A stretch of 64,000 nucleotides of DNA, from the NCBI RefSeq assembly GCF_037976325.1, contig NZ_CP150265.1:1161001-1225000 (forward strand), in the 5' to 3' direction. Under the pieces are notes generated by a model that saw only the letters and a program-made list of their open reading frames with translations, was not told the origin of the DNA and ran no database searches. This document shows, one piece after another, positions 23,898-62,146 of this stretch (position 1 is its first letter; each line of letters starts with the position of its first letter). The position numbers and the translations under genes are program-made. The stretch is from Paenibacillus sp. FSL K6-3182 (GTDB taxonomy: Bacteria > Bacillota > Bacilli > Paenibacillales > Paenibacillaceae).

Positions 23898-23951
23898 AAT
23901 TGATTCACATATGCATAATGAGACATAGGATGCTCAGTGGGCAGGCTGTGA

Positions 23952-36600: not shown

Positions 36601-37241
36601 ATCGCGAAAAACTCGGCAGGATTTGGCACTCCTCGCAGAAGCTTAAGGATAAATAGCAGGCAAAGCAGCTGTGCAGCAGCATAGATGAAGATTAAATTTT
36701 CGGTTCCTAACGACTGTACCAGCAGCTTTAGACCAAAGCCGCTCAAAATACCGCCAACAAGTCCACCGCTTCCTACAAAACCAATCATGCGTTTCGCTTT
36801 GCGCTGATCCATAATGGAGGTCGCAAACTGCCAGAAGCAGACGATCATCAAAAAGTTTAGTACATCATATCCAACGTAGATGACGGGGAAAATCCAGCTA
36901 AAGCCGATCCCGACAGCAAGACGCGAAAGAAGTGCGAGCATAGAAGCAATGATTATAACTCTAACAACGAGTTGATCGGTGCGGAAGCGTCCGCATAGCT
37001 TTTGGTATATAAATCCGGTTAAGAGAAGGGTGGCTGCTTGGGGCAAATACATATACGATAAGACGGATGCGTCGTATCTGCTGAGAAATAAAGTATCTGC
37101 AGCTGTTCGACTGATAGTAGAAGCAGCGACGATGAAAAACAGATAACCGAATAAATAAAATATTTTTCTATATTCTGTTCGATCGGATTGAAATTGACGT
37201 GAGAGCAGAGTGAATGGATTAACGATACTTTTCTTAGACAT
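33693..37241 (-). CDS. Npt-like nucleotide transporter fused to HEAT repeats and two cyclic-nucleotide-binding domains
   Basis: 1,182 residues. About 1-418: 10-12 membrane helices with the ISRTAADTLFLSRYD stretch found in Npt1/Npt2-like ADP/ATP-carrier relatives. About 430-860: HEAT-like helical repeats (SVTIRAHAILALSAYALEE, HIRAAAIVGLIKYYG, LVRIRALKSASIL). About 885-1010 and 1050-1172: two cyclic-nucleotide-binding domains (GDSLYLIEQGRTGIY with YFGEISV; GDTMYGIIEGKVQVH with CFGEMAIIDGQPRSA, the latter with the canonical phosphate-cassette Arg). The start at 37241 is supported by GGAGAGG about 10 bases upstream; the frame is open to 37325. It may be a ligand-gated carrier. A single gene, divergent from the siderophore locus. 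Confidence 0.88.
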   Translation of the reverse strand: MSKKSIVNPFTLLSRQFQSDRTEYRKIFYLFGYLFFIVAASTISRTAADTLFLSRYDASVLSYMYLPQAATLLLTGFIYQKLCGRFRTDQLVVRVIIIASMLALLSRLAVGIGFSWIFPVIYVGYDVLNFLMIVCFWQFATSIMDQRKAKRMIGFVGSGGLVGGILSGFGLKLLVQSLGTENLIFIYAAAQLLCLLFILKLLRGVPNPAEFFAIKTTIKKLSKAQTRAVEEKQGLFQSVPHLKYVAIMAGTLTISLTLVDYQFKVILRGTLQNEELASFMGSFYGFAGLLALFVQLFISGKMITRYGVMTAILVFPIVLFTGSFALLIMPVLAIATAVKASDKVLGDTIYSSVSQLIMFPIAPEWRGRAKGFLDGIVRNGAKGIAAISLIVLSQWFAIEQFSYFILALIGCCIVAAIKIKKNYLSMLLSTLQSKSMDLQDEPDFVDPASIQILASALHRHDKQQALYAFAILSGIQEFDMNEQITPLLQHPVQELQIEALKYLQLSTPALGERKLEAHLYSSSVTIRAHAILALSAYALEEQLDRITAYLHDEDVHIRAAAIVGLIKYYGIEGMFQAVGVLKELLKNGQEEERIAMAGLFGQIGIASFYKPLIPMFEDSSHLVRIRALKSASILRVPELVRFIIPLLDDSKVRLQATAALTSYDEAIIIPILESRMTAKELNLHLPRVLEEIGTQAALDALLRHYLLFSSELREKTLESATRIHAGTNQVDKKHAEHLIDQEISYYFKWVEQLALIGNTNRMSDLAEAIEQMRVRHVKRIFQLLAFLYDSRSIQAVYANWQDGNARQQANAIEVIDQLLKGKLRTDMTKIISSSSTPGEEAPSELHVKESIQWFYDQSDPWINLNIDYLTQSDDKLEQDSLMKQIHLLKRVALFAGLTGRDFFNIAMRLQKVWIRKGVEIVREGEAGDSLYLIEQGRTGIYIHGHKINELSAYDYFGEISVITQRVRSATVIAEEDVVLYELTSSAFYEMIFDRTEIAMELMKQLSLRLRNTNEKVSRAVLDAAIEEATVEDPALASIEAEDRNETIIRRILVLQKISLFAHCTQEDFIKLARMVEESVYEPGERICGIGEDGDTMYGIIEGKVQVHKGSEQLATLEVGQCFGEMAIIDGQPRSADCTAISRTILLELTREQVFTFCFQKIHVLKGLMRVLVERTQDTERLV

Positions 37242-37483
37242 GATACTTTTTCCTCTCCGTTTCTCTTCCTGCCCGCAATAGCTTAAGAAGAATAGTATAT
37301 ATGAAGAAAATACATATTGGAACAAAATTTGCTAGAATGCTTCGCGATACGTATGGTCTGCTGGATATGTAGAAATGGTATGCCATTAATTCGTCTTATA
37401 CGGCGAAAAGTAAAATAAACGCAAATTGGAGCCAATAGTAGATTCTTCGCTAAAAATAATGTCATGATTTACGCTGTCAGACA

Positions 37484-45145: not shown

Positions 45146-45242
45146 GCTGTCGTGAGCTTGAAGAGGGTTGGTTTAGGCTTCACAAGGAATTTGAGGAACT
45201 TTGTCGAATGATAGACGAATCGAAAAAAAGGGAGGCATCGTC

Positions 45243-47072
45243 ATGGACACAAGACAATGGATGTCAATATTGCTATGCTTTGCGACCGCTGTGATGCTGT
45301 TCGTGGCGTTCCTCTCCTACCGGAAACGTCATTTGCAGATGGCAAGGACCATGATTTACATGATGACAACGGCGTCTTTTTACGCACTCGGCTACACCTT
45401 TGAAATTTTTAGCGACAGCTTAAGCGGAGTGAAGTTTTCTCTACAGGTCGAGTACATCGGCATCCCCTTTGTCTCTGCATTTTGGCTGCTGCTCGTTATC
45501 CAGTTCACAGGACTTACGCCCCGCTACCGGAAGCAGCTTGCGATATTGCTGTTTCTCGTTCCAACAGTGACTTTCCTACTCCATCTCACTAACGATTGGC
45601 ATCATCTTATTTACAAAGAATACGTCTTGAACACGATTAAGACGGTTCCCTTGTACAATACGGTGAAGGGACCGTGGTATTCCGTACACGCGATCTACAA
45701 TTATACGATTCTGCTTCTCGGCATTTTGTTGTTTATTCCCATGTATTTGCGGGCATTGCCTATCGTGCGGACACAGATTGTCGTCCTTATTTTGGGCGCG
45801 GCCGCTCCTATGCTGTTTAATATCGCCTACATGTTCAGCAAAGTTATTGATTTCACGCCGCTTGGTTTCGCTGTATCGGGCGTTGTTTATGCTTGGGGCA
45901 TTTTCCGGTTTAGGCTGCTTCGTTTAACACCGCTTGCATATGCTAAAATGTTCGATACGATCCGCGACGGCGTTGTCCTGCTCGACTATGAGGATCAGAT
46001 TGTGAACCACAATCGCGCGGCAGAAGAAGTGTTTCCTGAGCTTGGATCGGCAAAAAGTTTTCCTGCGTTCATCAAGGACTTGCTGCCAGACTGCCCAGAG
46101 CTGCTCGAGCGAATTGCCGCAACGGAATTCCGAGATGATCGGTTTTCGCTTCAGCGCTTGCAAAGCGATCGGCAAAGGTATTATATTTGCAGCTTATCTT
46201 ATATTTATGATACAGGTATGGCCCCTATTGGAAAAATGCTGATGCTCAGCGATATTACGGAGCTGAAGGAGAACGAGGAGAGGCTGCGCGAGAAGTCTGA
46301 ACGATTGTCTCGGCTGAACGCCTTCAAGGACAAGCTGTTCACCGTAATGGCTCACGATATCCGTGATCCGATCGCGCTGCTTGTCAGCTTGACCGAGCTG
46401 CTGGGCGATGAGCCGAGCGACACTGACATCGCGAATGCTGAAGTGTTTCAAGAGATTAGGAGGCAAGTGCGCGGTACCTATTATCTCGTCGATAATTTGC
46501 TCGACTGGTATCGCAGTCAAAATGGGGAAGTAGCGTTTCGACCGCTCACGTGGAATTTGCAGCAGGTCGTTCGCCAAGCCATCTCGTTAGCCGGAGCAAG
46601 GGCTGGCATGAAGAACATCAGTATCTCAGAGCACATCGACGAGAGGCTGACAGTGAATGCGGATAAAGAAATGCTCGATCTCATTTTCCGTAATTTGCTT
46701 TCAAATGCGATTAAGTACACGGACATTGGCGGGGAAATTGCGATAAATGCATCTATCGATCGGGACCAGGTGACGGTGACTGTACGCGATAATGGGAGCG
46801 GGATAGACGAGGAAACAGCACAACTGCTGCATCATGATGAACTGTTTTTCAAGGAGCCTGGATTTGCCAGTGGAGAAGATGGTGGAGAGATGAGGTTTGG
46901 TCTCGTATTAACCCGAGAATTTCTTCGCATGCATGGCGGCAGTCTTAGGTTCGATAGCTTGCCTGGCGTAGGTACAACATTCTTTTTCACATTGTCCGGC
47001 TCATCGAGTCGTGGCGGAACGATGGAAAGTGAAGGAACGGCGGTGATAGCTGATGAAAGTCATATTGATTGA
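45243..47072 (+). CDS. 7TM-sensor histidine kinase
   Basis: 609 residues. About 1-215: seven membrane helices of the histidine-kinase N-terminal 7TM type (ILLCFATAVMLFVAFLSYRK, VEYIGIPFVSAFWLLLVIQF, FLLHLTNDWHHLIYKEY). About 230-340: PAS-like domain. About 350-420: dimerisation domain with MAHDIRDPIALL (phospho-His about 368). About 450-590: ATPase domain with NLLSNAIKYT, VRDNGSGIDEE and FGLVLTREFLRMHGG. The start at 45243 follows GGGAGG by 7 bases. It overlaps its regulator by 20 bases. It is probably the sensor for a signal that controls the giant surface protein downstream (inference from position). Confidence 0.92.
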   Translation: MDTRQWMSILLCFATAVMLFVAFLSYRKRHLQMARTMIYMMTTASFYALGYTFEIFSDSLSGVKFSLQVEYIGIPFVSAFWLLLVIQFTGLTPRYRKQLAILLFLVPTVTFLLHLTNDWHHLIYKEYVLNTIKTVPLYNTVKGPWYSVHAIYNYTILLLGILLFIPMYLRALPIVRTQIVVLILGAAAPMLFNIAYMFSKVIDFTPLGFAVSGVVYAWGIFRFRLLRLTPLAYAKMFDTIRDGVVLLDYEDQIVNHNRAAEEVFPELGSAKSFPAFIKDLLPDCPELLERIAATEFRDDRFSLQRLQSDRQRYYICSLSYIYDTGMAPIGKMLMLSDITELKENEERLREKSERLSRLNAFKDKLFTVMAHDIRDPIALLVSLTELLGDEPSDTDIANAEVFQEIRRQVRGTYYLVDNLLDWYRSQNGEVAFRPLTWNLQQVVRQAISLAGARAGMKNISISEHIDERLTVNADKEMLDLIFRNLLSNAIKYTDIGGEIAINASIDRDQVTVTVRDNGSGIDEETAQLLHHDELFFKEPGFASGEDGGEMRFGLVLTREFLRMHGGSLRFDSLPGVGTTFFFTLSGSSSRGGTMESEGTAVIADESHID

Positions 47073-48204
47073 CGATGAGCCCGTCATGCATTTGATCATG
47101 CGGAAGATGCTCGTGAAATATGCTGAGCTTCAGGTGACGGGAACGTTTGTAAATACGGATGCTGCGGCTGCATTTCTGAGTGAAAATCCCGACGTCGAGC
47201 TGGCGTTTGTGGATATCTCCATGCCCGGTGATAGTGGACTTACATTCGCCGCAAGGCTGGACGAAGCAGGCTGTAAGACGCAAATCGTGTTTGTCACCTC
47301 GCATAAGGATTATGCGCTAGAAGCTTATGAGTTGTCCGTGCTTGATTATTTGGTGAAGCCGGTAACTCAGGAGCGGCTGGAGCGGACGATTAACCGGGCA
47401 CTGGAGAGCAGAAAAATCGTTCAACCGCTGCAGCAAGCAGATACTGCGATTCGGGGTATGAGCCGTGTCAGCGTTGCCACGCTGGGCGACTTTTTTGTGC
47501 GTAATGAATCAGGACGCGTAAAGTGGATTTCCAGCAAGAGTGCTGAACTCTTCGCCTATTTGCTGCTGAATCGGGGTAGACGAATTTCGCGCTCGCGCCT
47601 TGTTGCAGATATATTCGCGGGTATGGCGAGCGTGAATGCCGAAAAATATTTAAATACAACCGTGTACCAGCTGCGTAAATCATTGGAGCCGATAGGGCTC
47701 CGGGAAGCTATTCGTTCTGAGAATGACGGTTATGCGCTGGAACTGGACGATGCAGTTATTGACTACGTTGAATTTGAGCGTCAAACAGAAAATCTGGGAA
47801 GTATCGACGCGGGCAACGTGGAAGAAGCACTTATCGTTGAAAGGCTCTATACGGGTGATTTGTTCGGCAGCAAAGCTTACGTATGGGCGATTCATGAGAC
47901 AGATCGGCTGTCAGAGCGGTATGCATCTTTTGTCAAAAATGCAGCAGAGACGCTGCTCACCCTGTCGAACACGGCTGCGGCGTCGAAGCTTCTTCTGAAG
48001 CTGCATGCCCGTAATCCGCTTGAAGAATCGGTGGTCGAGCTGCTGATGAAGAAGCATGGACTGGACGGGGATAAGAAAGGGTTAACCGCACAATACACCG
48101 ACTATGTGAGGCTTCTAAAGCGGGAACTGGGCATTCGTCCATCCCAAGAGCTGCTTATGCTGTATGATTCTCTTATCAGCGGACTTTCCGAAGTAGGAAA
48201 ATAA
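47053..48204 (+). CDS. Response regulator with OmpR-like and BTAD (SARP-type) domains
   Basis: 383 residues. About 1-120: receiver (ILIDDEP, phospho-Asp about 54 in AFVDISMPGDSG, LDYLVKPV). About 140-235: winged helix (WISSKSAELFAYLLLNRGRR, LNTTVYQLRKSLEP). About 240-380: bacterial transcriptional activation domain with TPR-like helices (EEALIVERLYTGDLF, LLLKLHARNPLEESVVELLM, LKRELGIRPSQELLMLYDSL). This REC-wHTH-BTAD order occurs in Bacilli and differs from ordinary OmpR regulators by the SARP-like tail. It is translationally coupled to the 7TM kinase; the giant gene begins 200 bases downstream. Confidence 0.92.
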   Translation: MKVILIDDEPVMHLIMRKMLVKYAELQVTGTFVNTDAAAAFLSENPDVELAFVDISMPGDSGLTFAARLDEAGCKTQIVFVTSHKDYALEAYELSVLDYLVKPVTQERLERTINRALESRKIVQPLQQADTAIRGMSRVSVATLGDFFVRNESGRVKWISSKSAELFAYLLLNRGRRISRSRLVADIFAGMASVNAEKYLNTTVYQLRKSLEPIGLREAIRSENDGYALELDDAVIDYVEFERQTENLGSIDAGNVEEALIVERLYTGDLFGSKAYVWAIHETDRLSERYASFVKNAAETLLTLSNTAAASKLLLKLHARNPLEESVVELLMKKHGLDGDKKGLTAQYTDYVRLLKRELGIRPSQELLMLYDSLISGLSEVGK

Positions 48205-48223
48205 ATATTTTGAACAGGTTGCA

Positions 48224-48256
48224 AAAACCGCGAAGCCTTGATGCTGCGCGGTTTTT
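48224..48256 (+). terminator. Rho-independent terminator
   Basis: Stem AAAACCGCG/CGCGGTTTT with a 14-base loop and TTTTT. It separates the two-component operon from the giant gene. Confidence 0.9.
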
Positions 48257-48305
48257 GTCGTTTTACGCGAAAATCTTTTATTATTCTTTCATCGCAGCCT
48301 ATTAG

Positions 48306-48319
48306 ACTTAAGCTTAAGT
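48306..48319. promoter_or_regulatory. 14-bp perfect palindrome upstream of the giant gene
   Basis: ACTTAAGCTTAAGT, with a related half-palindrome TAAGCTCTTAAG at 48361-48372. It lies in the short control region of the giant gene and could be an operator, perhaps for the adjacent BTAD regulator. Role inferred from position only. Confidence 0.4.
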
Positions 48320-48403: not shown

Positions 48404-51400
48404 GTGAGGAAACAAAAAGTTAGAATGTTAAGGAGCCTGCTGCTCAAGTGGATGATGATTGCTAGCCTAGTTGTCGGTCTGGTAGCTCCCGGCATAGGCA
48501 ATGCGAGCGGGCAAGCCTTCGCGGCATCTGCAATTCCGGCCAAAGTGCCCGCTGCATTCTCAGATCTAGCGGGCCACTGGGCGGAGAAGACCGTCAGGGA
48601 GTGGGCAGGCCAAGGTTTAATTGAGGGTTTTCAGGACGGAACCTTCAGGCCAAATCAAGCTCTAAGCCGGATTGAATACGTAACGCTGGTCAACCGGCTA
48701 TTCGCGTTCAAAGGAGCGGGGACTAAGCAGTTCACGGACGTCGCTCCGACCGCTTGGTATGCTGTGCAAGTGCATGCAGCCGCGGAAGCAGGGTATATCG
48801 AAGGCTATGGCAATGGAACATTTCGGCCAGAGCAGAAGCTAAGCCGAATAGAAGCAGCTGTTGTGCTTTCGCGCCTTGTGCCGGTAATAGGCAAAGACGG
48901 GGCTAGCCTGCTCAGCGAGTTTAAGGATGGGGCTAGCATTCCTGGTTACGGACGCGATGCATTGGAAGCCATTGTTGAAGCGGGCTACATTAGCGGGCTT
49001 GCGGACGGCACGCTTCGGCCGGTTCAGCCGATGACAAGGGCGGAAGCCGTTATGATGCTCGATAGAGTGCTGAAACAATCAACTAGGTCAGCAGAGGGAA
49101 TAACCGTTAGCGCAAAGGTTCTTGAAACAGGGGGCACATGGGGCAAGGCGCAAGGGAACTTTGAAGTCGCTGGCGATTTGACCATTCAGGCTCCAGGCAC
49201 AACTCTTCGTAATGTGACGATTAAGGGAAATCTCACTATTGGGAAAGAAGTCGGCGAAGGAGATGTGTTTCTCAAAGGTGTGAAAGTGCTTGGAAGCACG
49301 TTTGTAAACGGCGGCGGGCAGAACAGCGTACATATTGATGACTCGCAGCTAGCAGCTGTCGTCGTCGACAAAGCAGATGGACGAGTTAGGGTTGTCATCG
49401 GTGGAACAACGATTATAAGACAGCTGGATGTGCAATCGGAGGCGAATATTGAATCTCCGATATCTGAAGGCAGCGGGATAGAGGGCATTACGATCTCCTC
49501 TTCCGGCGAAGTTATTTTGTCCGGCAAGTTTAAGCTAGTCGAGGTTAAGAGCGATGTGCAGTTAACCATTGCTTCGGGATCTGTAGAAAAATTAACCGTT
49601 AGTGAGCAGGTTAAGACATCAACCATTTCACTTGCAGAAGGCGTCAGCGTTAGCAGCATGGAACTGCATGGGCCAGCGAATGTGAAAGGCAAAGGAACGA
49701 TTGAGAAAGCAATTGTCGATTCTCTAGGCGTTGTTTTTGAGAAGGAGCCAGCTCAAAAAGAAGTAACCGAGAAAGGTGGTTTAATTGGAGGTGGAGCATC
49801 AGGGGGAATTGGTTCGCCGGGCGGGCCAACGAGCCCAACTAATACACCTAAACCAACCGATACTCCCAAACCAACAGAAACGCCAAGACCAACGGATCCG
49901 GTTGATGTAACAGTAACCGCAACTGCGGGTCAAGCAGCAGCGACAGGGTTTAGGCTTGCGTTTAGCGCGCCAGTACCAGGGCTCACCGCAGCACATCTGA
50001 CACTGAAAAACGCTGCGAACGGAAACATTACTGTTGCATCAGCTTCTACGCTTAATGGGGGCAGCTCTTACTTTATTACAGCAGCTCTCACAGAGGGCGA
50101 GTCTTATAAGCTGACGATTGCTAAAACTGGGTTTCAGTTCGGGGCTGGGATTTTATTTCAAGTTCCAAAGACTGAGCAGCCTGCCATTTCGGTTGCAGCA
50201 TCCGTATATGGGTCCAGCAAAACGGGGTTCTCGTTGCTGCTGAGCCCGTCGGTTGTTGGATTGACGCAAGCTGAGTTTACACTCAAGCACGGCAGCGAAA
50301 GTGTCGCAATAGGTTCCGTAACCGAGCGGACGGGAGGCAGCGCTTATGATTTCTCAGCGTCACTTGCCGAGGGTGAAACGTATTCGCTTACGGTTGCCAA
50401 GGAAGGATATTATTTCGGCAGCGCAGTATCGATATTCGTTCCGATTACTGATCCAGAGGTTGTATCTGTAGTGGCCTCAATATCCGGCGCAAGTACAGCT
50501 GGTTTCACAATCAAGCTGGATACTCCTGTCGCGGGGCTGACAGAGGATCATTTGACATTAGCGTTAAACGATCCAGGCACTAAGATTGGAGTGACGGAGG
50601 TCGCAACTGATGATGACGGCAGAACTTATGCTGTCAAAGCGGAGTTGGTCGAAGGCGAGACATACTCACTAACGCTAAGGAAAGCTGGATACAGCTTTGG
50701 CGCGGCGCTTAGCGTTGCGGTTGCCCCGCCCAGCAGTATTGCTGTCCATGCGGCCGTTAGCCACATCTCGACATCCGGCTTCATACTGGAGCTCGATCGT
50801 ACCGTCCCAGCTATCGATGCGCTAAGCTTTATTTTAAAGAATGCTGCTGGAGCGGACATAGGCATTAATATGCTAAGCGCGGTATCTATCGGCAAAGAGT
50901 ATGAAGTGTATTCCTCCCTAACGAAAGGCGAGACGTATACCTTATTGCTCAATAAAGAAGGTTATGCTTTTGGCAGCGAAATTGTCTTAAAGGTAGAACC
51001 TTCCCCAATTCTATCAACTGTAGAGTGGGTCAATCGTCAAGGCTTTCAGTTGAATTTCCCAAACGACACGGTCGATTTGGCTAAGGCCTTGATTACAATA
51101 GAGGATGGAAACGGCAAATCGCTTGCTGTCACTTCTGTCCAAACGAACGTGGATGGGCATTCGGCTATCCTATCAACCGATTTAATGGCTGCTGGGAGCT
51201 ATCGGTATAGAATTGATGTGGATGATGACCGCTATACGATCGGTACGCTTATCGTTCCAGAGAAGATAGCCGTATCGAAACAAACGGCGTTTGATCCGTC
51301 CAATGCAGGGATTATCGTGCACTTCAGCGTACCTGTTCCGGGATTAACCGCAGCAGCGTTTTCTCTAGCGGATACAAACGGTGATCAAATTGCAATAGAC

Positions 51401-54400
51401 AGTGTATCGACTCTGGATAATGGCAGCAGTTATTTCGTTAAATCGGCGGCCATGCAGTATCAACCCATAAGACTAAAAATAAGCAGTGAGGGTTACGACT
51501 TCGGAAACAGTGTAAACGTTGTTCGAACAACGATTAACCCATGGTATATAGGCGTTGGTCCGAATAATGTCATGGTTGGGCTTAACCCGAATATAGCGGG
51601 TTTGACCGCCAATGATTTCAAGGTCATGGATGCGCTCGGGAACGCGGTGGCCATAACGAATGTCGTGTGGGACCCTCAGCAAAGATTTTATGTTGTCTCT
51701 TATAACGGAGTGAGAGGAAAACCATATTTTATTAGCGTTGTACGTGAGGGCTTCGACTTTGGTTTACCGAAATCGGTTACGCTCGCGGAGAAGAACACGA
51801 TTACTGACATTTCCTATACAGGATTCACCTTTGTTCTTAATCCTCCTGCTTCTATTGATACAGTCAACGGCTTTGTTCTCAAGCGGGCCGACGGAAGCAC
51901 CATAAAACTCCGCTCTGCAGTGACAAGCGACGGCGGTTGGAGTTACCGAATTGCTGCTGATCTGACTCCTGGTGATTACGTGCTGAAGGTCAGTGCGACA
52001 ATGGATCAGACGATTTATAACATTCATGTTCCGGTCGTTACTACCATTTCGGCGGATCAGATTGTCGATACGGGACTTCGGGTTAAGCTTAGCTATGCTA
52101 TTGCGGGGTTAATACCAGGTCAATTTCTTCTGACTCGCAAGGGTACAGGAGAGCGGGTAACGATACAAGACGCTGTGACAATGGATGGCGGTCTTACCTA
52201 CAGGCTGAAGGCAGACTTGCTTGGCGGCAGCTATAACCTAAGTCTTCCTAGTCATCTTCCGGCGCAGGGGATCGAATTTGAAGCGGGAGAAACGATCGAC
52301 GCGGGGAAAGCGACCATCAGCAATACAGCCATGAATGGCTTTGATCTGGCATTTGAGCAAGCAGTTCCTGGATTATTGCCTGCTCATATTCAATTAACAG
52401 ATAATCAGGGCAATGGGGTTGGCGGAATGGCGCTGACAACCGCCGATGGAGGATTATCCTATCATGTCAGTGCAAATCTGATCAGTGGTCGAGACTATAC
52501 GATCGCCTTCCGCAAGGATTACGTGAAGTTTGACGGGCCGGCGACGTTTTACGTCAATCAATTGGTCACCGGAGTTATTACTGACGTCTCCAAAGATGGA
52601 GCAGTAGCGGTTACTTTCTCTACTCCTCTAAGGCAAATAGAGTACGGGCAGGGTCTTGCGGTGAAAGATGAACAGGGCAAACGCTATCACCCAAAAACGC
52701 TCGTCATGTCTGCCGATGGAATGAGCTTTGAGATGTCTTTTGGCGGTACGTTTGCTTTGACACGCGGACAAACATACGCCTTTGATATTGAGGTGGATGG
52801 TTATTCGTTCAGCCACCTAGCCTTTACCGTGCCTTCCGAAGCCACCGTTGCCGGATTTTCTGCTTCGGGTGTTACCGTGCATTTTGACATTCCAGTTATT
52901 GGACTTGGGAAGAAAAATTTCTTTATTCGGGGAGCTCAAGGGGAAACGATAAACGTAGCTTCGGCGAACACAACGGATTTCGGAAGCAGCTATGTATTGG
53001 AAGCAGCGCTGATTCCTAGTAAATCTTATATCGTTCAGGTAAAGCCGGACTTGACTTATCAGCGTTACGAGCCAGTATCCTTTGTGTTTACCAAGCTCAT
53101 TACCGCTTCTGTATCCGAGATGAAGAAAGATAGCTTCAAACTCAGCTTCAGTGAAAAGATTGCTGATTTGAAGCCTGCCGACATTATTTTGCGAAGACCA
53201 GACGGTCAGCAAATTCCAAACTCGGAATACTCTTTATCAACAAAAGATCAGGGTTTAACTTATCTGGTGGCGATCAGAGCTGCGACTGGTGCAAAATATT
53301 CACTTGAGCTAAGCCGAAGTGAATTTACGCTAGCGTCGCCGATCACGGTGGATATTCCCGTAATAGGCTCACTTCAATTGAGAGGTACGACGGCAACGAA
53401 GATTTATGTTGATGTTTACCCGCTTATTTCAGATTTGACTGGGGACAGCTTTAAGCTGACAGACAGCAAAGGCCGGCCAATCGGATTTACGCTTCATTAC
53501 GAAGGAGGCGCATCCTATTCTCTCATTGGCAATTTTAATGTATCCGAGACATATAGCTTAGTCATTACTTATCCGGGATATGACTTTGGAAATCCGCTGA
53601 CCGTTGGGCTGAAGGTTCGTGCCGATGCGATACTGTTACGCCAGTCGCAGCAGGGATTCACCATCTATTTCTTCCCGTCGGTTCCGAATCTTCAAGCCGC
53701 AGATGTGATGGTTAAAGACAATAACGGAAATTCAGTGGCAATTGAATCCATTCATACGAGTGATGACGGAGCCAGCTATACGGTTACGGTTCCTTTAAAA
53801 GGAGGAATCACCTATACCGCTAGTGTTGAAAAAGAGGGCTACATGTTCTCTACGCTTGACAAGATTACACTAAACTCGAGATCCATTTCGGCCGTACAAG
53901 CAACGGCTTCGAGAGTCACGTTGCATTTTAAGGAACAAACGATGTTAAATACTTCGGATATTCATATAGTGGATGAGAACGGGGTAAACGTTGCGATTCG
54001 CACGAACGTGTCAAACGATGGAGGTTATTCGTATGAGCTAGGCGTCGCAATCGTTCCTGATAAGGTCTATTCGGTGTTCATCTCAAAAATGGGTTACGAC
54101 TATGGTGATCCGCTAGCTTTCTCCATTCGCTCTGTAGGCGTTCGTTTTGGCGGGATGATTAGCGGGAACAATCGAGCTTTTATATTGCATTTAGATCAGC
54201 CGGTTCCGCATTTGCGAATAAGTGACTTCCAGCTTAAACGCGTGGAGGGCGGTACAAAGGCAATTACCTCCGCAACCACGAGTGATGGGGGTAATAGCTA
54301 CCTAATTGAAGCTGAGTTTTGGGGAGCGGAGCAGTACACAATCACCGCTGCCAAAGCCGGGTATGATTTCGGAAGCGGAGTTGTGGTTGACGTTCCAATC

Positions 54401-57400
54401 ATTGCAAATGCTGCAGTGCTAAGTTCAGGCGCTTCGGAAATTGTCATTGGTCTTAGCCCTGCTGTACCGGATTTGGATGTAAGCCATGTGGCTATCACAG
54501 ACGAGGAGGGCAATCGGCTTACTGCAGCTTCGGTCGTTACAGAGGATGGCGGACTAACCTATCGGATTAAAGCCTCTTATAAAGGAGGCAAAACTTACTC
54601 TTGTGCGCTAAGCAAGAGCGGGTATGATTTTGGACAAGCGTTGTCGGCTTTGCTGCCAAGCGCGGTTTCGGTGACAGTGGAAGGCGCTGCCGAGTCGGGA
54701 CTTGTCGTCTTTGTTGCACCGGGACTAAGCGGACTGTCTGCGAGCAGCTTCGCGCTAAAGGATGCCGAGGGCAAGTCGGTAATTATAAAAGCTGCAACAA
54801 CAAATAACGGTGGAAGAACGTACACATTATCCGCAGCGCTTGAAGGCGGGAAAACGTACAAGCTGATCATAACAGCAGCAGGATATGATTTTGGAGCGGC
54901 ATTGAACGCTTATGTGCCAGTACCAGTAAATCCAACTCTATCAAGTGTCAGTAAGGATGGGTTTAACGTGTTGCTTGATTCGGCTGTTCCGGGCTTGCGT
55001 GCAAGTGACTTTAGCTTGCGTAATAGTCAAGGTGCTGCGATTGCCATCGCCTCTATTACAGCCGAGAACGCTGGTATCGAATATGCGGTACATGCCTCAC
55101 TCGAAGAGGGAGCGGCTTACAGTCTGACTTTAACGAAGAGCGGCTACGCATTCAGCAGCGGACTTCCGGTTCTTGTTCCAGCTGCGCCTATACCGGAAGC
55201 GCAGGTGCCTATCCGCATGACAGCAAGCCATATTACAACTAACGCTTTCACATTAGAATTAAGCAAAGCAGTCCGTAATATGGATGGCACATGGCTTACA
55301 CTGCTTGATGACCAGGGACGAGGAATTGGATTCCAGCTTGTAAATCCGAATGGGAACAACCCAGATGCGCCAGATGCAGGACGAATCTACAACATCATTA
55401 CTCCGCTGTCAGCAGGTGTGAATTACAAGCTGATTGCTCAAATACCGGATCGTGTGGTGGAAGGACCGCTGGATGTTTATATTCCGATGACGGAATATCC
55501 GAAAAGTTTAGCTGCGACTAGAAACGGCTTGACGATCACTTTCGTTGGAGCGGGTCCAAAAGATCTGCAGCCGGAAGATGTGAAGCTCTTGTCTAAAGAT
55601 GGGACAGAGGTCACAGTCACTGGAGTGACAGCGGGTGTAGAGACAGGGTCGTTTTTAATTAAAGCGAATGTGGTTGAAGGGCAAACGTACACCGCAGCTT
55701 TTAGCAAGCAAGGCTATATCTTTGCTGGGCAGGAAAAATTAAATGCCGTTTACGTGCCGATTGTTATCTCTGCGACGCTTGTTCGAGTGAATGAAAATGG
55801 ATTTAATCTGCTCCTTAGTGCTCCGATAGAAAATTTGAATATCGAAATGCACAATGGCAGCGCAGTCTGGTATCGCCCAACCTCTGTTTCAACGCCGGAC
55901 TTTGGGCAAACCTATTTTATTAATGAATATATCGGATATAACAAGGAGTTTAAGCTTCGTCTGAGCAAGGACGGGCATGACTTTGGAGGGGATACGATCA
56001 TCAGCAACGTGAGCACACCTCCCGAGCTGATCGATGCCGTATCGAGTGAAAACGGAAAAGCCATTACCCTGACCTTTGATAAGCCGCTGGCTGCTGTTAA
56101 TTCGGGGTCAACGTTTTCTGTGAAAATTAACAACCAATGGCAAAGCGGGGTTATGACAAGGCTGACCTCCGATGCAACGAAAATCGAGTTGACTTGGAGC
56201 AGCAGCGGGGCGGTTATCAGTTCGACATCGACGATAGCCGTCGCTTATAGCGGCATCAACCGGGTCAAGGCAGTTAATCAGACGTATTTGGCCACTTTTG
56301 GAGAATTCCAGGTAGCTAATGTCGCTACGCTGGATGGTTTCCTGCAAAGCCATTCCACCCAGTACGATGCCGTTTACCCTGTGCATGTACTGCGGGTTGA
56401 TTATGGCAAGTCTGCGTTAGAGTCATTAAGACTGCTACGGCAAGCTGGATTTACCCCAGCGAACTACGCAAAAGCGGTCAAGAAAGAATATGGTTTGGAT
56501 TGGAGTGCATTCATCCGCCTATTATACGAAATAGATACTGATGCGCCTACCTTGTTCCAGGCTTTAAGCGCGTCTGGCTATATTTCCAACTATGTCAATT
56601 TGATACCGGATTTTGTGACAGCTGGCTATGAAGCTGAAGACATTGCACTGCCGCTTCGTAATCTTGGCTATCAGCCTCGAGATATAATGGCGTCGTTTAA
56701 GCTAGCCGGAGTAACAACCGCTTCATCCGCCTATGTTCTGCGTTATACCTATGCGGAAACTGGCGGAAACGCCGCTGTGGCATTGAAGCTAGGCAAGTAC
56801 AGTATTAGCGAGATTAGGGATGCTGTTCAATCCGTTTACGGCTTAACGAACGAGAGCACCATCGAAGCTTTGGCTGCCGCGAAATTCACGGCAGCAGAAT
56901 CCGCAGTTGTCATTAAAGAGGCTTATGCCGCATCTAGCGTAGATAATGCGAAACTGCTTGGCAGTGCTGGTTATCCTGCTAACAATATAGGAATTGCGCT
57001 GCGAGATCTATATTCGTTCAGCGACGTCAACGAGGCTGTTCTGACTTACTTGGGAGCAGGCATTGAGACAGGACAAGCTTATGTTATCTTAAAAAGCACC
57101 TTCGATAAGCAACAAACAGCTTCAGCTATGCTGGCGGCAGGTATTGCTGCTGCCCAGGTCGCCAAAGGTATTCAAGCCTCCGGCGATGGTGCAGCCGTTA
57201 TTGTTGGCGCTATGAAAAGCGGATCATACGGGATCGGTGAAATTGCTAGCGCCGTACTCGGCGCATGGGGTTCCGAAGCGGCTGGACTAAGTGAGGCTAT
57301 GAGAGGGTTTACGGATCATGGTTATGACATGGAAAGCAAGGCGGGATTGCTTCGAGAAAGCTTCGGGGCTGATATCGCTACGACCATCAGCGTGCTGTAT

Positions 57401-60400
57401 CCGGGGGTGAAGGGCGACCAAAGAAAGACGATGCTGTTGTCATTAATTCGCGCTGGTTATGAGCCTGCGGAACTTACGGCTTATATTCTGAATAATCGAA
57501 TGGCCAGCAGCCGTTCGGAAGCTCTGACGCTGCTGAGGCAGTCGGGTATGTCTACCGCGCAAGGATTAAGCACAATTCGAAATGCCGTCATTCGCGGAGG
57601 CGCGTCCTTCACAATGGAGGATGCGGTGGAAGTTATCTTCCGCAGCTATGACCGCTTCGAGGCTGGAGATGTATTACATGCGCTTCGAACGACTTTTGCA
57701 AGTGATGAAACGGTAAGTATGGATGCCACTACTTTGGCCCGTTCGCTCACAAGCATCAAAAGCTGGGAGAAGCTAGCCATTGGACAAGCTCTAAAAGCTC
57801 AGCTAGGCTTGACGCTGCAGCAATGGGTAGAGCTTGAAAGGACTACTGCATTTGATTATTTTAAATGTCCTTGCAGTGTATCAACGGTTGTAAAGGACTC
57901 GCAATATTTGTTCCCGGGAACGTCAATACAGGAAGCGACAGTGGCAATGAGCCTCTCTAGCTTCTATACGCTGGATGACATTATTGAAGGAACAATTAAT
58001 CTTTATCCTACTGGCGGAGTACGTGCGAAAGGATTGCCGTATTTGACCGCAGCGCTAAAAGACTCGGGGTATAAATTCACGGAAATTGCACAGGCATTTG
58101 AAGCGCGGGGCTGGACGGAATGGATTGGGGCTTTCAGCAAACAAGGCATAGCAGCTAGTGAGGTTGCCGCCTATCTGAACCAACGGACCGAACCGCTAAC
58201 GATAGGGCAAGTCATCACACGCCTTGCACCATATTCGGTAAGGGATATTGCATTAGTGCTTAGAACGGAATACGGCTTGCCATCGTCAGAGGCGTCTGCG
58301 CTTCTGCTTGCCAGCTATTCGTCAGAGGAAGTAGGTACTGCCATCGCTGCTGCTTATGGCGGAGACCCTATGACGATTTGGATCAAAGTGCTGAAGGAGC
58401 AAGGCGCAACGGCCATTTCTGTCATCAATACGCTGGGTGCGCTGTATCCGTCTTATTTTGACTCAGGCAAGGTTGGGCCGGCACTGATTAAGGGTGGATA
58501 TTCGAAAGAAGAAGTAATGGAAGGACTTCTCATCCACACCCGAAGAATGGGTAATATGAAATCGACCATAGCGATTCTGCAGTCTTTGTACGGACAAGAG
58601 CAAGTGACGATTGCTGGTCTGCTTGACGCTTCGTCCAGCAAGGAGCCTAAGGATGGTATTGCATTTCTTAGAATGAGCGGTTATTCCTTATCCGTTGTTG
58701 CTCACAGCCTGAAAGATTATTATCAGCTTACTTCGAGCGAAGCTTCATATTTGCTGGCAAAAGAATATCCTAACGACATCGACGATATTCTGCTTGGCCT
58801 TGCATCCTTATATGGTCAAGGACTTGATGAAACAGTTGCAGGCGCGTTGGAGCAGCAAGGGATCACAACCTTTGATGAAGCGGTTAATTATCTATACGTC
58901 ACAGGTTTCCCGATTAAAGATATCGTGAGCGTTGGCAAAAACCATTTTGGCCAATCGGCTGGGGTGATCGCGCTTCGCTTGTCAGCGGTATACTTGTCGT
59001 CAAGCAATGTGCTCATCCAGGCAGTAGCTTCAGCTTTTAATCAATCCGTTGAGTTAACGATGTATCAGCGGCAGGCAGCAGAAGGACCAGTATCCTTTGC
59101 CAGTGGAATTGAACTTGCTTATAAGGCGCAATTCAGCTTAGTATCGATCGTGAAGATGGCAAAGGATGGTTACGGTATTTCATCGGGTGCAGCTCTTCAA
59201 GCACTGCTGGATACTGGCCGGTATCGCCAGAGCGACGTGCTTTCTGCTATATCGAATGTTTACGGCAGCTCACAAAACGCAAGCATTGTTGACTCTTTAG
59301 AGGCTCAGCATCTGGTGACATTGAAGGATGCAATCCCTTATCTGACAAAGATGAGATTCAGCCTCCGGGATATGATTCAGGTAGGGAAGGATTATTACAT
59401 TCTCGATTCCTCTAAAGTGGTACAAGCCTTAATGGATGGTGCAGTCGATGAGGAGAGCCGGATTTTGGCGGAAGTTTCTGCTGTTTACGGTTTAGCGTTA
59501 GAGCAGGTTACGATTCAGGCCATGATCGATCTGGGCATCGGAAGGTTGGCGGATGCAATTCCACAGCTTAAGCTTAGCTATAGCTTGCGAGATATTATCC
59601 GAATTGCCAAGGATTATTACCATATGACAGCAGGTGAGACACTAGCTATTCTCTCCGAAACAAATGGATATTCATTTAATGAGCTAGTAGCAACTGTCTT
59701 TGAAGTTTACGGAAAACCGATCGAGGAAAGCTTATCCAGCCTGCTTAAGAAGAGCAGAATCAATACGCTGGAGGATGCTGTTCCGCTCCTCAGAGGCATG
59801 GGCTATACGCTTCATGATATTGTGGGCGCAGCTAAGGATTATTTTGGATTTGCAGCAGACAAAACGTTAACGGTTCTAACCGCTCTCCAAGTGGACAACG
59901 AAAAGGTTATTGAAGTAACGGTAGCTGCCGTTTATGGGCAGTCATCAGAGTCTACGGCGCTGCAGTATCTAGAAGAAGGGGGAATCACGGACGAAACAGC
60001 GGCCATTCCTTACTTGTGGAATTCAGGCGTTCCGATGATAGATATCGTACGCGTGGTTAAAGGCTTTTACGGCAAGACAGCCGGCGAAACCGCAGCATTG
60101 CTAATTGGCAGTCAGCTGTTCGAGCTGAACGTCATTCTGAGCAGTGTAAATGCAGTGTACGGACAAGCGGTGAACGGCGCTTTAATCGAAGTAATCAAAG
60201 CAGGTGGAGCAACATCAGCTGAAGCTATGGCGGATCAGCTCTTGGATGCAGGCTACCGCATGGAGGACATCGTTAAGGCGAGCAAGGAGCAATATGGCAA
60301 GACGAGAGAAGCGTCGCTTGTGATTCTTCAGGGACTTGCCGTTTATCAAGAAGCAGCCATTCAATCAACGCTTAATAAAGTGTACGGAGAGGCTTTTGCT

Positions 60401-62146
60401 CCGGTGAGCATTATCAAGGATGTCCTTAAGCTGAAAGGTGTTGCGACGCCACAAGGAGCGGTTGTGTTCTTGCGGGATGCCGGCTATGAAATTAAGGAAA
60501 TTGTCCAATACCTCAGGTTTGACTATAAACTAGACTCAGGTGCAGTTACTGAATTGCTTTCTCCCTATTATCCGGCAGAAGTGATTGGGCTTGCTATAGT
60601 GGGAGTCTATTATACCAACACAAATCTAAGGGTATTGGAAGATATTTTTCCGGCAACGACCGCATTTGTACCACTCAATGTTGTGCGGTTTATGAAAACC
60701 AAATTCACTGTCGCCGATATCGTACTCGCTATGAAGCTGTTATTTCAAATGGATGCAGCCACGATAATGGAAACTATTCCGGAAACTTTGATTCCGCAGG
60801 ATCAGGTTCGGATGGCCGCAGGTGAAGTATTCGGCGGCAATCCGCTAATTGCTTACCTTGCCCGTATGAAGTCGAAAGGGACGGACGCCGCCGGGATTGC
60901 TACCGAGCTTGAACGGCAAAATCTGCTTGGTCCTGATCGTTCTGGATATTTGATCGGCACGTTAATGACGCTTGGTTATGATCGTGCCAGCATTATCCGT
61001 GCTTTCTATATGTTCTTCACGGCTGGCAGAGGGACGGCAACAACAATCGAGGAGCAATCGGCGCTGTTCGTCAAGCTGGGGTATTCAAAAGCGGGAGACA
61101 TCATTGACGTTCTGAGGCAGAATGGGTACGTAAACAGTACCAGCTATGCATATCGCGTATTCACAACCGTCAAGATGACTTTATCGAGCGTTTCTATGGT
61201 CGATATTGCGAAGGAAATGAAAAATCGCGGTTATGACGGTAGAGAAATTTTGAACACGCTGAATCGGTACGATGCGCGAGAAGATTCGATCTTTACACTT
61301 CTGAAGGAGTATGGTTATAACGCAGAAGAGGCGCTTCGGTACATGAAAGAGCGGACGCTCGAAAATAAACTATATTGGCTGCATAAAAACGGATACGCTG
61401 TCGGTGAATACTTAAGATACACCTTTAATTGGGATAACGACACGATTTCTATTTTGAGACAGTTAGGTATTCCTTCCACCGACCTCTCGAAGGCTTTGCA
61501 CAGCAGTGGCTACAGTCTTTATTATATTTCCAAGTTCTTGTACGACGGAGGATTCAAGGAAATTGCTGAGCTTACTAGAGCGCTGCTGGCGGTAAACGCC
61601 CACGTACAATGGGTTCCTTACAATTTGCTTGAGCTGGGTCACTGGTCGCTTAAGGAGATAGCCAAGGGTATGCTTGATTCTGGGCTGATCACTCTCGTAG
61701 AGCTTAGCGATGCCATACGGATGGCTAATAACAACAACTTGGATGAGACGTATCTGATTATTAAGGAAATATCGACACGTGAGCAGCAAGCTTTTTACGA
61801 TGATCTGTCCAGTGCGGAACGCATGCTGCTCAGCAATAATGAAATTGCCATTATCATTACATTGACGACTCTTCGGGGCGATAGAGTAAGGATAGGTGAG
61901 GCGACTAAGCTAATGCGAAACACAGAGAGAGTAGACTATAAGGACTCCGTCATTATGACAGCTCTTTCTGGATATAACGTCCTCGATGCTCTTGATGCGG
62001 TATGGGATGTTTATCGCTTTGAAATTGGTGTCGCTATTCTTAAGACGATGATCGGTCAGACTTGTACGAAGGTACTTACGGAATTCAAGGATTACTACAG
62101 GCTGGGAAATCTGGTTTACAGGATCGTATCAAGAGTGATGAAATAA
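48404..62146 (+). CDS. Giant SLH-anchored surface protein with beta repeats and novel alpha-helical repeats
   Basis: About 4,580 residues in one frame. Signal peptide (about 1-42, SLLLKWMMIASLVVGLVAPG); three SLH domains (about 48-225: FSDLAGHWAEKTVREWAGQG, FTDVAPTAWYAVQVHAAAEA, third from FKDGASIPGYG); beta-helix-like stretch (about 229-440, NFEVAGDLTIQAPGTTLRNV); Gly then Pro/Thr linker (about 456-500, TPKPTDTPKPTETPRPTD); about 23 beta repeats (about 502-2540); a SwmB/CopC-like domain (DAVSSENGKAITLTFDKPL, about 2545-2635); then about 1,900 residues of helical repeats to the end. The GTG at 48404 is chosen because AAGGGG lies 8 bases upstream; an ATG at 48386 is possible. It probably protrudes from the cell wall as an adhesin or scaffold. 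No enzyme motif was found. Confidence 0.9.
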   Translation: MRKQKVRMLRSLLLKWMMIASLVVGLVAPGIGNASGQAFAASAIPAKVPAAFSDLAGHWAEKTVREWAGQGLIEGFQDGTFRPNQALSRIEYVTLVNRLFAFKGAGTKQFTDVAPTAWYAVQVHAAAEAGYIEGYGNGTFRPEQKLSRIEAAVVLSRLVPVIGKDGASLLSEFKDGASIPGYGRDALEAIVEAGYISGLADGTLRPVQPMTRAEAVMMLDRVLKQSTRSAEGITVSAKVLETGGTWGKAQGNFEVAGDLTIQAPGTTLRNVTIKGNLTIGKEVGEGDVFLKGVKVLGSTFVNGGGQNSVHIDDSQLAAVVVDKADGRVRVVIGGTTIIRQLDVQSEANIESPISEGSGIEGITISSSGEVILSGKFKLVEVKSDVQLTIASGSVEKLTVSEQVKTSTISLAEGVSVSSMELHGPANVKGKGTIEKAIVDSLGVVFEKEPAQKEVTEKGGLIGGGASGGIGSPGGPTSPTNTPKPTDTPKPTETPRPTDPVDVTVTATAGQAAATGFRLAFSAPVPGLTAAHLTLKNAANGNITVASASTLNGGSSYFITAALTEGESYKLTIAKTGFQFGAGILFQVPKTEQPAISVAASVYGSSKTGFSLLLSPSVVGLTQAEFTLKHGSESVAIGSVTERTGGSAYDFSASLAEGETYSLTVAKEGYYFGSAVSIFVPITDPEVVSVVASISGASTAGFTIKLDTPVAGLTEDHLTLALNDPGTKIGVTEVATDDDGRTYAVKAELVEGETYSLTLRKAGYSFGAALSVAVAPPSSIAVHAAVSHISTSGFILELDRTVPAIDALSFILKNAAGADIGINMLSAVSIGKEYEVYSSLTKGETYTLLLNKEGYAFGSEIVLKVEPSPILSTVEWVNRQGFQLNFPNDTVDLAKALITIEDGNGKSLAVTSVQTNVDGHSAILSTDLMAAGSYRYRIDVDDDRYTIGTLIVPEKIAVSKQTAFDPSNAGIIVHFSVPVPGLTAAAFSLADTNGDQIAIDSVSTLDNGSSYFVKSAAMQYQPIRLKISSEGYDFGNSVNVVRTTINPWYIGVGPNNVMVGLNPNIAGLTANDFKVMDALGNAVAITNVVWDPQQRFYVVSYNGVRGKPYFISVVREGFDFGLPKSVTLAEKNTITDISYTGFTFVLNPPASIDTVNGFVLKRADGSTIKLRSAVTSDGGWSYRIAADLTPGDYVLKVSATMDQTIYNIHVPVVTTISADQIVDTGLRVKLSYAIAGLIPGQFLLTRKGTGERVTIQDAVTMDGGLTYRLKADLLGGSYNLSLPSHLPAQGIEFEAGETIDAGKATISNTAMNGFDLAFEQAVPGLLPAHIQLTDNQGNGVGGMALTTADGGLSYHVSANLISGRDYTIAFRKDYVKFDGPATFYVNQLVTGVITDVSKDGAVAVTFSTPLRQIEYGQGLAVKDEQGKRYHPKTLVMSADGMSFEMSFGGTFALTRGQTYAFDIEVDGYSFSHLAFTVPSEATVAGFSASGVTVHFDIPVIGLGKKNFFIRGAQGETINVASANTTDFGSSYVLEAALIPSKSYIVQVKPDLTYQRYEPVSFVFTKLITASVSEMKKDSFKLSFSEKIADLKPADIILRRPDGQQIPNSEYSLSTKDQGLTYLVAIRAATGAKYSLELSRSEFTLASPITVDIPVIGSLQLRGTTATKIYVDVYPLISDLTGDSFKLTDSKGRPIGFTLHYEGGASYSLIGNFNVSETYSLVITYPGYDFGNPLTVGLKVRADAILLRQSQQGFTIYFFPSVPNLQAADVMVKDNNGNSVAIESIHTSDDGASYTVTVPLKGGITYTASVEKEGYMFSTLDKITLNSRSISAVQATASRVTLHFKEQTMLNTSDIHIVDENGVNVAIRTNVSNDGGYSYELGVAIVPDKVYSVFISKMGYDYGDPLAFSIRSVGVRFGGMISGNNRAFILHLDQPVPHLRISDFQLKRVEGGTKAITSATTSDGGNSYLIEAEFWGAEQYTITAAKAGYDFGSGVVVDVPIIANAAVLSSGASEIVIGLSPAVPDLDVSHVAITDEEGNRLTAASVVTEDGGLTYRIKASYKGGKTYSCALSKSGYDFGQALSALLPSAVSVTVEGAAESGLVVFVAPGLSGLSASSFALKDAEGKSVIIKAATTNNGGRTYTLSAALEGGKTYKLIITAAGYDFGAALNAYVPVPVNPTLSSVSKDGFNVLLDSAVPGLRASDFSLRNSQGAAIAIASITAENAGIEYAVHASLEEGAAYSLTLTKSGYAFSSGLPVLVPAAPIPEAQVPIRMTASHITTNAFTLELSKAVRNMDGTWLTLLDDQGRGIGFQLVNPNGNNPDAPDAGRIYNIITPLSAGVNYKLIAQIPDRVVEGPLDVYIPMTEYPKSLAATRNGLTITFVGAGPKDLQPEDVKLLSKDGTEVTVTGVTAGVETGSFLIKANVVEGQTYTAAFSKQGYIFAGQEKLNAVYVPIVISATLVRVNENGFNLLLSAPIENLNIEMHNGSAVWYRPTSVSTPDFGQTYFINEYIGYNKEFKLRLSKDGHDFGGDTIISNVSTPPELIDAVSSENGKAITLTFDKPLAAVNSGSTFSVKINNQWQSGVMTRLTSDATKIELTWSSSGAVISSTSTIAVAYSGINRVKAVNQTYLATFGEFQVANVATLDGFLQSHSTQYDAVYPVHVLRVDYGKSALESLRLLRQAGFTPANYAKAVKKEYGLDWSAFIRLLYEIDTDAPTLFQALSASGYISNYVNLIPDFVTAGYEAEDIALPLRNLGYQPRDIMASFKLAGVTTASSAYVLRYTYAETGGNAAVALKLGKYSISEIRDAVQSVYGLTNESTIEALAAAKFTAAESAVVIKEAYAASSVDNAKLLGSAGYPANNIGIALRDLYSFSDVNEAVLTYLGAGIETGQAYVILKSTFDKQQTASAMLAAGIAAAQVAKGIQASGDGAAVIVGAMKSGSYGIGEIASAVLGAWGSEAAGLSEAMRGFTDHGYDMESKAGLLRESFGADIATTISVLYPGVKGDQRKTMLLSLIRAGYEPAELTAYILNNRMASSRSEALTLLRQSGMSTAQGLSTIRNAVIRGGASFTMEDAVEVIFRSYDRFEAGDVLHALRTTFASDETVSMDATTLARSLTSIKSWEKLAIGQALKAQLGLTLQQWVELERTTAFDYFKCPCSVSTVVKDSQYLFPGTSIQEATVAMSLSSFYTLDDIIEGTINLYPTGGVRAKGLPYLTAALKDSGYKFTEIAQAFEARGWTEWIGAFSKQGIAASEVAAYLNQRTEPLTIGQVITRLAPYSVRDIALVLRTEYGLPSSEASALLLASYSSEEVGTAIAAAYGGDPMTIWIKVLKEQGATAISVINTLGALYPSYFDSGKVGPALIKGGYSKEEVMEGLLIHTRRMGNMKSTIAILQSLYGQEQVTIAGLLDASSSKEPKDGIAFLRMSGYSLSVVAHSLKDYYQLTSSEASYLLAKEYPNDIDDILLGLASLYGQGLDETVAGALEQQGITTFDEAVNYLYVTGFPIKDIVSVGKNHFGQSAGVIALRLSAVYLSSSNVLIQAVASAFNQSVELTMYQRQAAEGPVSFASGIELAYKAQFSLVSIVKMAKDGYGISSGAALQALLDTGRYRQSDVLSAISNVYGSSQNASIVDSLEAQHLVTLKDAIPYLTKMRFSLRDMIQVGKDYYILDSSKVVQALMDGAVDEESRILAEVSAVYGLALEQVTIQAMIDLGIGRLADAIPQLKLSYSLRDIIRIAKDYYHMTAGETLAILSETNGYSFNELVATVFEVYGKPIEESLSSLLKKSRINTLEDAVPLLRGMGYTLHDIVGAAKDYFGFAADKTLTVLTALQVDNEKVIEVTVAAVYGQSSESTALQYLEEGGITDETAAIPYLWNSGVPMIDIVRVVKGFYGKTAGETAALLIGSQLFELNVILSSVNAVYGQAVNGALIEVIKAGGATSAEAMADQLLDAGYRMEDIVKASKEQYGKTREASLVILQGLAVYQEAAIQSTLNKVYGEAFAPVSIIKDVLKLKGVATPQGAVVFLRDAGYEIKEIVQYLRFDYKLDSGAVTELLSPYYPAEVIGLAIVGVYYTNTNLRVLEDIFPATTAFVPLNVVRFMKTKFTVADIVLAMKLLFQMDAATIMETIPETLIPQDQVRMAAGEVFGGNPLIAYLARMKSKGTDAAGIATELERQNLLGPDRSGYLIGTLMTLGYDRASIIRAFYMFFTAGRGTATTIEEQSALFVKLGYSKAGDIIDVLRQNGYVNSTSYAYRVFTTVKMTLSSVSMVDIAKEMKNRGYDGREILNTLNRYDAREDSIFTLLKEYGYNAEEALRYMKERTLENKLYWLHKNGYAVGEYLRYTFNWDNDTISILRQLGIPSTDLSKALHSSGYSLYYISKFLYDGGFKEIAELTRALLAVNAHVQWVPYNLLELGHWSLKEIAKGMLDSGLITLVELSDAIRMANNNNLDETYLIIKEISTREQQAFYDDLSSAERMLLSNNEIAIIITLTTLRGDRVRIGEATKLMRNTERVDYKDSVIMTALSGYNVLDALDAVWDVYRFEIGVAILKTMIGQTCTKVLTEFKDYYRLGNLVYRIVSRVMK
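49910..56020 (+). repeat. Array of ~23 coding beta-type repeats, 85-90 residues each
   Basis: Each unit has the pattern GFxLxFxxxVPGLTAxxFxLKD, then a turn, VTTxDGGxSYxVxAxL, xxGxTYxLTxxKxGYDFG and a linking strand. The terminal GYDFG-type motif recurs about every 260 bases (for example 54353, 54612, 54874 and 55138). Copies 8-13 and 21 have lost the motif but keep the strands. The repeats have diverged at DNA level, so the array is old. Confidence 0.85.
56340..62140 (+). repeat. Array of coding alpha-helical repeats, clearest period about 75 residues
   Basis: The motif DI(V/I)xxxKDYYG recurs at about 58708, 58935, 59159, 59386, 59607, 59830, 60054 and 60281, at intervals of 221-227 bases. 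Between these a second motif, VxAVYGxxxE, recurs with the same period, so each unit is two related halves of about 37 residues. More diverged copies fill the rest (SEIRDAVQSVYGLTNES at about 56,810; RDIALVLRTEYGLPSSEA at about 58,240). Not matched to any helical-repeat family I know. Confidence 0.8.

Follow-up and report, generated by a model that had tools for sequence, protein, structure and literature searches.

A giant SLH-domain surface protein with a fixed-length helical head in Paenibacillus, and a promoter signature associated with its neighbouring two-component genes

In the window analysed here (the whole 64,000-nucleotide stretch of the Paenibacillus sp. FSL K6-3182 genome, positions 1,161,001 to 1,225,000 of contig NZ_CP150265.1), one gene encodes a giant protein that carries SLH domains near its start, a large helical head at its end, and a stalk of Ig-like domains between them. 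It is somewhat probable, in our judgement, that this protein is a regulated head-on-stalk surface fibre, switched by the neighbouring two-component pair and used for contact. The two-component genes and the promoter signature described below are new to this analysis, and were absent from the first-pass annotation of the same DNA. No description of the protein's family or of its regulon was found in the open-licence papers searched.

An intact gene with a conserved order of parts

The giant gene (48404–62146, + strand) runs in a single frame from a GTG at 48404, preceded by an AGGGGA read by eye, to the stop ending at 62146; no stop interrupts it, and its 4,580 codons and 4,580-residue product agree with the uninterrupted gene of about that size first proposed. 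The N-terminus is signal-peptide-like by eye, being hydrophobic with basic residues, and in 14 of 16 bins, each of 300 codons, GC content peaks at the first codon position. A frameshift or assembly collapse in the long repeat region, the hazard named in the first-pass annotation, was looked for, and the evidence speaks against it: the genome is one closed contig of 7,559,925 bases (99.99% complete), and open frames of 4,578–4,828 aa occur in 26 of the 27 loci with a full-length helical match, the window's own included. The exception is the broken frame of genome G121 (3,292 aa). Comparison of the gene with three relatives over seven regions gives dN/dS values of 0.03–0.18, and the gene is under purifying selection. 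Broken copies in a few relatives (G121 and G105) and an apparent remnant in G042 could be taken to favour an assembly artefact or a decaying gene; the closed contig, the genes of equal length in other genomes, and the dN/dS values together remove the artefact reading, and we treat this explanation, to which we assign negligible probability, as in effect refuted.

The distal helical part was used to trace the gene's distribution. Its profile matches in 36 of 394 family genomes, and the giant itself is present in 28, namely the 27 with a full-length helical match (among them G121, with its broken frame) and G105, in which the frame is split. Relatives with the giant include Paenibacillus sp. FSL A5-0031, P. 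paridis, and P. luteus. A search of the taxonomic order gave matches in 17 of 296 genomes, including two from another family. Across the phylum, 2 of 398 match, namely the window's own genome and, in another class, locus L063 (G597:C143), where two short stretches resemble the head; a stop interrupts one of them, and they may be a remnant. The proposed order of anchor, beta-helix, linker, beta stalk, and helical distal part is real, and the search for homologues of the same order found the architecture conserved in the 28 family genomes.

Three SLH domains (48557–49084, + strand; about residues 52–227) are recovered by Pfam in three stretches (E 2.4e-32), and PDB entries 3pyw and 6bt4 match residues 52–227; the SLH anchors first suspected are therefore present. 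By analogy with known SLH biology, the giant would be a surface protein attached to a pyruvylated wall polymer. The beta-helix-like region that follows (49085–49783, + strand; about residues 228–460) is of CBM54 type: about residues 236–480 match both chains of the chitinase ChiW in PDB 5gzt (E 6.3e-15 and 6e-11). Excerpts of the ChiW study describe its CBM54 as a right-handed beta-helix that is cut between Asn282 and Ser283 (PMC5132251). All eight aligned proteins retain the cleavage motif given there, GGGX(N/Q/D/H)S(V/I)x, which appears here as GGGQNSVH (49310–49333, + strand; residues 303–310), a predicted self-cleavage site; together with the ChiW match, this suggests that a nick may be made in the fibre close to its base. 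The beta-helix of the first-pass annotation is accordingly confirmed, and the "rigid stalk" role assigned to it gives way to a reading as CBM54. The Gly- and then Pro/Thr-rich linker (49775–49900, + strand), also anticipated, varies among relatives, with 12–17 of 17 aligned residues gapped out in five of seven.

ChiW of Paenibacillus sp. FPU-7 is similar in several respects, since the excerpted account gives it SLH domains, a CBM54 with the cleavage motif, a flexible linker, Ig-like domains, and a place on the cell surface (5gzt; PMC5132251). It differs distally, where ChiW is described as bearing two GH18 catalytic domains and the giant instead has 23 Ig-like repeats and a helical head; Pfam found no catalytic domain in the giant.

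The stalk (49925–56002, + strand; residues 508–2533) comprises, by a purpose-built HMM, exactly 23 Ig-like beta repeats with a period of 87, where about 23 had been counted before. The repeats show weak similarity to Big_5, below the cut-off. Eight proteins have stalks of 23, 24, or 25 repeats, and insertions of about one repeat occur in four of seven relatives. A conserved junction domain (56003–56311, + strand; residues 2534–2636), likewise weakly similar to Big_5 below the cut-off, joins stalk and head; its dN/dS is 0.03–0.06.

Other features of the window were noted in passing. A 1,210-aa protein (33693–37325, − strand) appears by eye to combine a transporter-like part, HEAT-like repeats, and two cyclic-nucleotide-binding-like domains, and at 37570–39525 (+ strand) an AraC-type DNA-binding domain seems, again by eye, to be joined to a siderophore-binding-like protein, with two permease-like genes after it. 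Tandem repeats lie at 23950–24537 (4.8 copies of 123 bases, 87% matches) and at 2192–2491 (2.7 copies of 112 bases, 89% matches).

The helical head and its relatives

The head (56312–62143, + strand) spans 1,944 residues, close to the 1,900 first estimated, with about one 10-residue helix per 15 residues and periodicities of 15, 30, and 75. Structure prediction, which the first-pass annotation had recommended, gave two models that are all-helical, the C-terminal one containing 72 helices with a median length of 10 and a median step of 15. The helices are thereby supported and the fold is not, as both models are poor (mean pLDDT 63 and 59, pTM 0.29 each) and have low TM-scores and Z against solved structures. 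Searches of the head against Pfam and PDB returned no family above noise, and FIVAR modules gave no match in the window protein at E 1 and none in eight heads at E 0.01.

Head comparisons covered 27 of the 28 giant genomes, leaving out the split gene of G105 and a second giant in G106. In these 27 aligned sequences, head length is 1,938–1,963 residues (SD 7), identity to the window's head is 37–98%, and 177 columns are invariant. The C-x-C pair, here C-P-C (57866–57874, + strand; residues 3155–3157), is invariant in 27 of 27 heads. The stalk, in other words, changes by whole repeats and the head does not. The "helical superstructure" once proposed is consistent with this fixed length, but its fold is left without support by the models. 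Because the head evolves as a unit of fixed size, we take it to be the working part of the giant; such a size would point to one particular surface or assembly more than to a spacer that only adds bulk.

Related heads are also found on other supports. Six SLH-type loci have open frames of 1,958–2,053 aa, and the two of them that were run through Pfam both have SLH domains. Further supports are a 2,376-aa protein with SLH and Big_4, a 4,356-aa protein with SLH and FN3, and a 577-aa protein without SLH. At four loci that encode smaller or FN3-stalked helical SLH proteins (L058, L059, L060, and L062), a histidine kinase gene of a different type lies directly or nearly upstream, with 7TMR-DISM in three of the four.

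Giant1-3 of Apilactobacillus kunkeei, compared by description, are also surface giants (3,000–8,000 aa) that combine a beta-solenoid with long alpha-helical repeats; SLH domains go unmentioned in the text of that study, and the order of parts and the anchoring differ from those of the giant in the window (PMC12863079).

A two-component pair and a promoter signature

The two genes directly upstream of the giant encode a sensor kinase (45201–47072, + strand; HisKA_7TM, PAS_8, HisKA, and HATPase_c) and a response regulator (47053–48204, + strand; Response_reg, Trans_reg_C, and BTAD, the latter two both above the Pfam cut-off). Among 16 relatives with inspected flanking DNA, 13 have the regulator next to the giant, on its upstream or its downstream side, and in G041 the giant sits between kinase and regulator. 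Regulator and giant share contig and strand in 23 of 27 giants, the window's own counted, and the regulator is on another contig in the other four (G047, G017, G114, and G120). On the head tree, the ten giants whose regulator lies about 2 kb downstream group in a single clade, so the rearrangements reflect few events.

A regulator orthologue, defined by our own line of at least 55% identity between orthologue and paralogue, occurs in 28 of 28 giant genomes and in at least 29 of 366 others, at most the best four candidates per genome having been considered among the matches listed (Fisher p 2.6e-27, a value that ignores the relatedness of the genomes). The presence of the regulator in at least 29 genomes without the giant, and its place on another contig in four with it, count against the regulatory link proposed below. 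Regulator and head distances correlate across 14 genomes (Mantel r 0.81), but the two trees disagree on the branch of the window's own sequence, a further point against it.

Between regulator and giant lies the signature CTTTTAT-TATT-CTTTCAT-N10-TAGACT (48275–48308, + strand), a predicted regulator site and −10 element, preceded by a hairpin with a T-run (48222–48257, + strand) that is terminator-like by eye and is not listed by a terminator scan. With constant spacing and one or two letters varying, CTTTyAT-N4-CTTTyAT-N10-TAgAcT is present in all of the first eight upstream regions. Of ten further upstream regions, nine hold a site that scores 30–40 against a matrix built from these eight, where the top score elsewhere in the window is 10; in the tenth (G320) the site was cut at the end of the piece read, and the genome-wide pattern search finds it. 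All 27 giants checked are preceded by the signature, 7,961–8,658 bases before the helical part. In G042 (locus L180, G042:C31:51500-57827), the signature stands before a 127-aa open frame that resembles the giant's start, upstream of kinase and regulator genes; this frame is probably a decayed giant.

Genome-wide, the signature follows the regulator. With at most one mismatch it is found in 56 of 57 regulator genomes, at 129 sites (summed over the per-genome table) versus 4 for the reversed pattern; the regulator match in the one genome without a site (G396) is only partial. Among 57 control genomes it occurs in one (G093), which belongs to the 16 controls from other families that lay outside the regulator screen. 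It occurs in none of the 41 same-family controls, which lack the regulator among the matches listed and three of which (G243, G259, and G293) carry a paralogue of 44–45% identity. Within the window's genus, the signature is present in 19 of 19 genomes with the regulator and 0 of 22 without it among the matches listed. In the window's own genome the pattern occurs once, at the giant; when three mismatches are allowed there are 11 other hits versus 23 for the reversed control, so weaker sites there cannot be judged.

The form of the signature is that of a SARP operator. Excerpts of a study of SARP regulators describe operators of heptamer direct repeats with short spacers, classically in 11-bp units, that overlap the −35 region, and give the AfsR repeat as CGTT(T/C)ATCGNN (PMC10972967). 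The signature has heptamer direct repeats in 11-bp units near −35, and its CTTT(T/C)ATNNNN resembles the AfsR repeat. The SARP/AfsR proteins of Streptomyces, as presented there, likewise join a DNA-binding domain to a BTAD; here, by contrast, a receiver is fused in front, the adjacent gene encodes the kinase, and surface proteins, not antibiotic genes, make up many of the targets. From the association, we infer that the regulator binds the signature. That the signature instead belongs to another regulator, co-inherited with a pair that is not the direct switch, is distinctly improbable. The evidence is an association among related genomes, and in 4 of the 27 giant genomes the regulator lies elsewhere, as such a reading would have it; yet the joint occurrence of regulator and signature in family and genus, the suitability of the operator form for a BTAD regulator, and a site that precedes the regulator gene itself in G029 all argue for the neighbouring pair.

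What lies behind the signature was sampled at 40 of the 129 sites, that of the giant of G320 included, by choosing the longest ORF that starts within 700 bases of the site. Of the 40 chosen ORFs, 27 have at least 1,000 residues, 34 begin like a signal peptide under a simple hydrophobicity criterion, and 24 show SLH domains, among them the giant of G320. Five of the 40 run off the fetched DNA, and four of these five are large with no visible SLH. Among 492 ORFs around regulator loci, 4.3% have at least 1,000 residues and 31.5% a signal-peptide-like start, and the contrast is a guide only, because the choice favours long ORFs and the comparison set was not picked in this way. All seven downstream proteins sent to Pfam have SLH domains. 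The remaining sites are mixed, several preceding smaller or non-SLH genes. The signature elsewhere thus often precedes large SLH proteins. A one-mismatch site in G117 (L064; G117:C1:1822158-1822191) lies just before the 2,376-aa SLH, Big_4, and helical protein, and this small-stalk relative may therefore share the control.

A proposed role and its alternatives

We propose the following model. A signal sensed by the neighbouring kinase would activate the regulator, which would bind the tandem heptamers, 11 bp apart and just upstream of the −10, and bring polymerase to the giant's promoter. The giant would be exported by means of its signal peptide and held on a wall polymer by its three SLH domains. 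Homology and motif suggest that its CBM54 probably nicks itself at N307|S308 and stays assembled, as ChiW does. The 23 Ig-like domains would lift the 1,944-residue head off the wall, and the head would serve as the working part, offering a large and defined surface for binding or assembly that a single C-x-C disulfide may staple. Its most likely role would be to make contact, under regulation, with other cells, matrix, or polysaccharide surfaces; this is the least firm step of the model. SlhA of Paenibacillus alvei, compared by description, is also an SLH surface protein. According to excerpts of its study, cells that lack it fail to swarm and form less biofilm, and it has C-terminal SLH domains and a CBM6, unlike the giant (PMC3776848).

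Two other functions could be served by a protein of this kind. The giant may be a regulated anti-adhesive shield that crowds or masks other surface proteins, as Ebh, SraP, and SasG do in Staphylococcus aureus under the ArlRS-MgrA cascade. Size, wall anchoring, and a two-component link are common to both, judging from excerpts of that work (PMC6548404); the cascade there represses proteins that shield adhesins, and the giant has no FIVAR match. Shielding by bulk would need no head of fixed length with so many invariant columns across 27 sequences, and we regard this function as unlikely. A second function, very unlikely in our view, is that of a building block in an S-layer or matrix, where the helical part would form a lattice and would not be a head for binding. 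S-layer proteins typically carry SLH anchors, and a fixed head length would suit a lattice too, but a stalk that varies by whole repeats and a patchy spread over 28 of 394 genomes are poorly suited to a basic coat. We retain the regulated contact fibre as the preferred reading.

More broadly, and as a serious yet tentative possibility, these results may describe a two-component regulon with SARP-type operators for large SLH proteins among relatives of Paenibacillus, whose sole target in this genome is a fibre with a head of a new family. In such a head, some 130 ten-residue helices would form one superstructure of fixed length, and no tunable spacer; it would be a new extracellular alpha-solenoid, reused on supports of varied length and make-up. 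An anonymous giant gene thereby gains a regulatory logic that can be tested, and its working part is argued for on evolutionary grounds. For each genome, the signature yields a prediction of the large SLH proteins that may fall under one regulator, and with such predictions a single reporter could reveal the condition that induces giant surface proteins in these soil bacteria.
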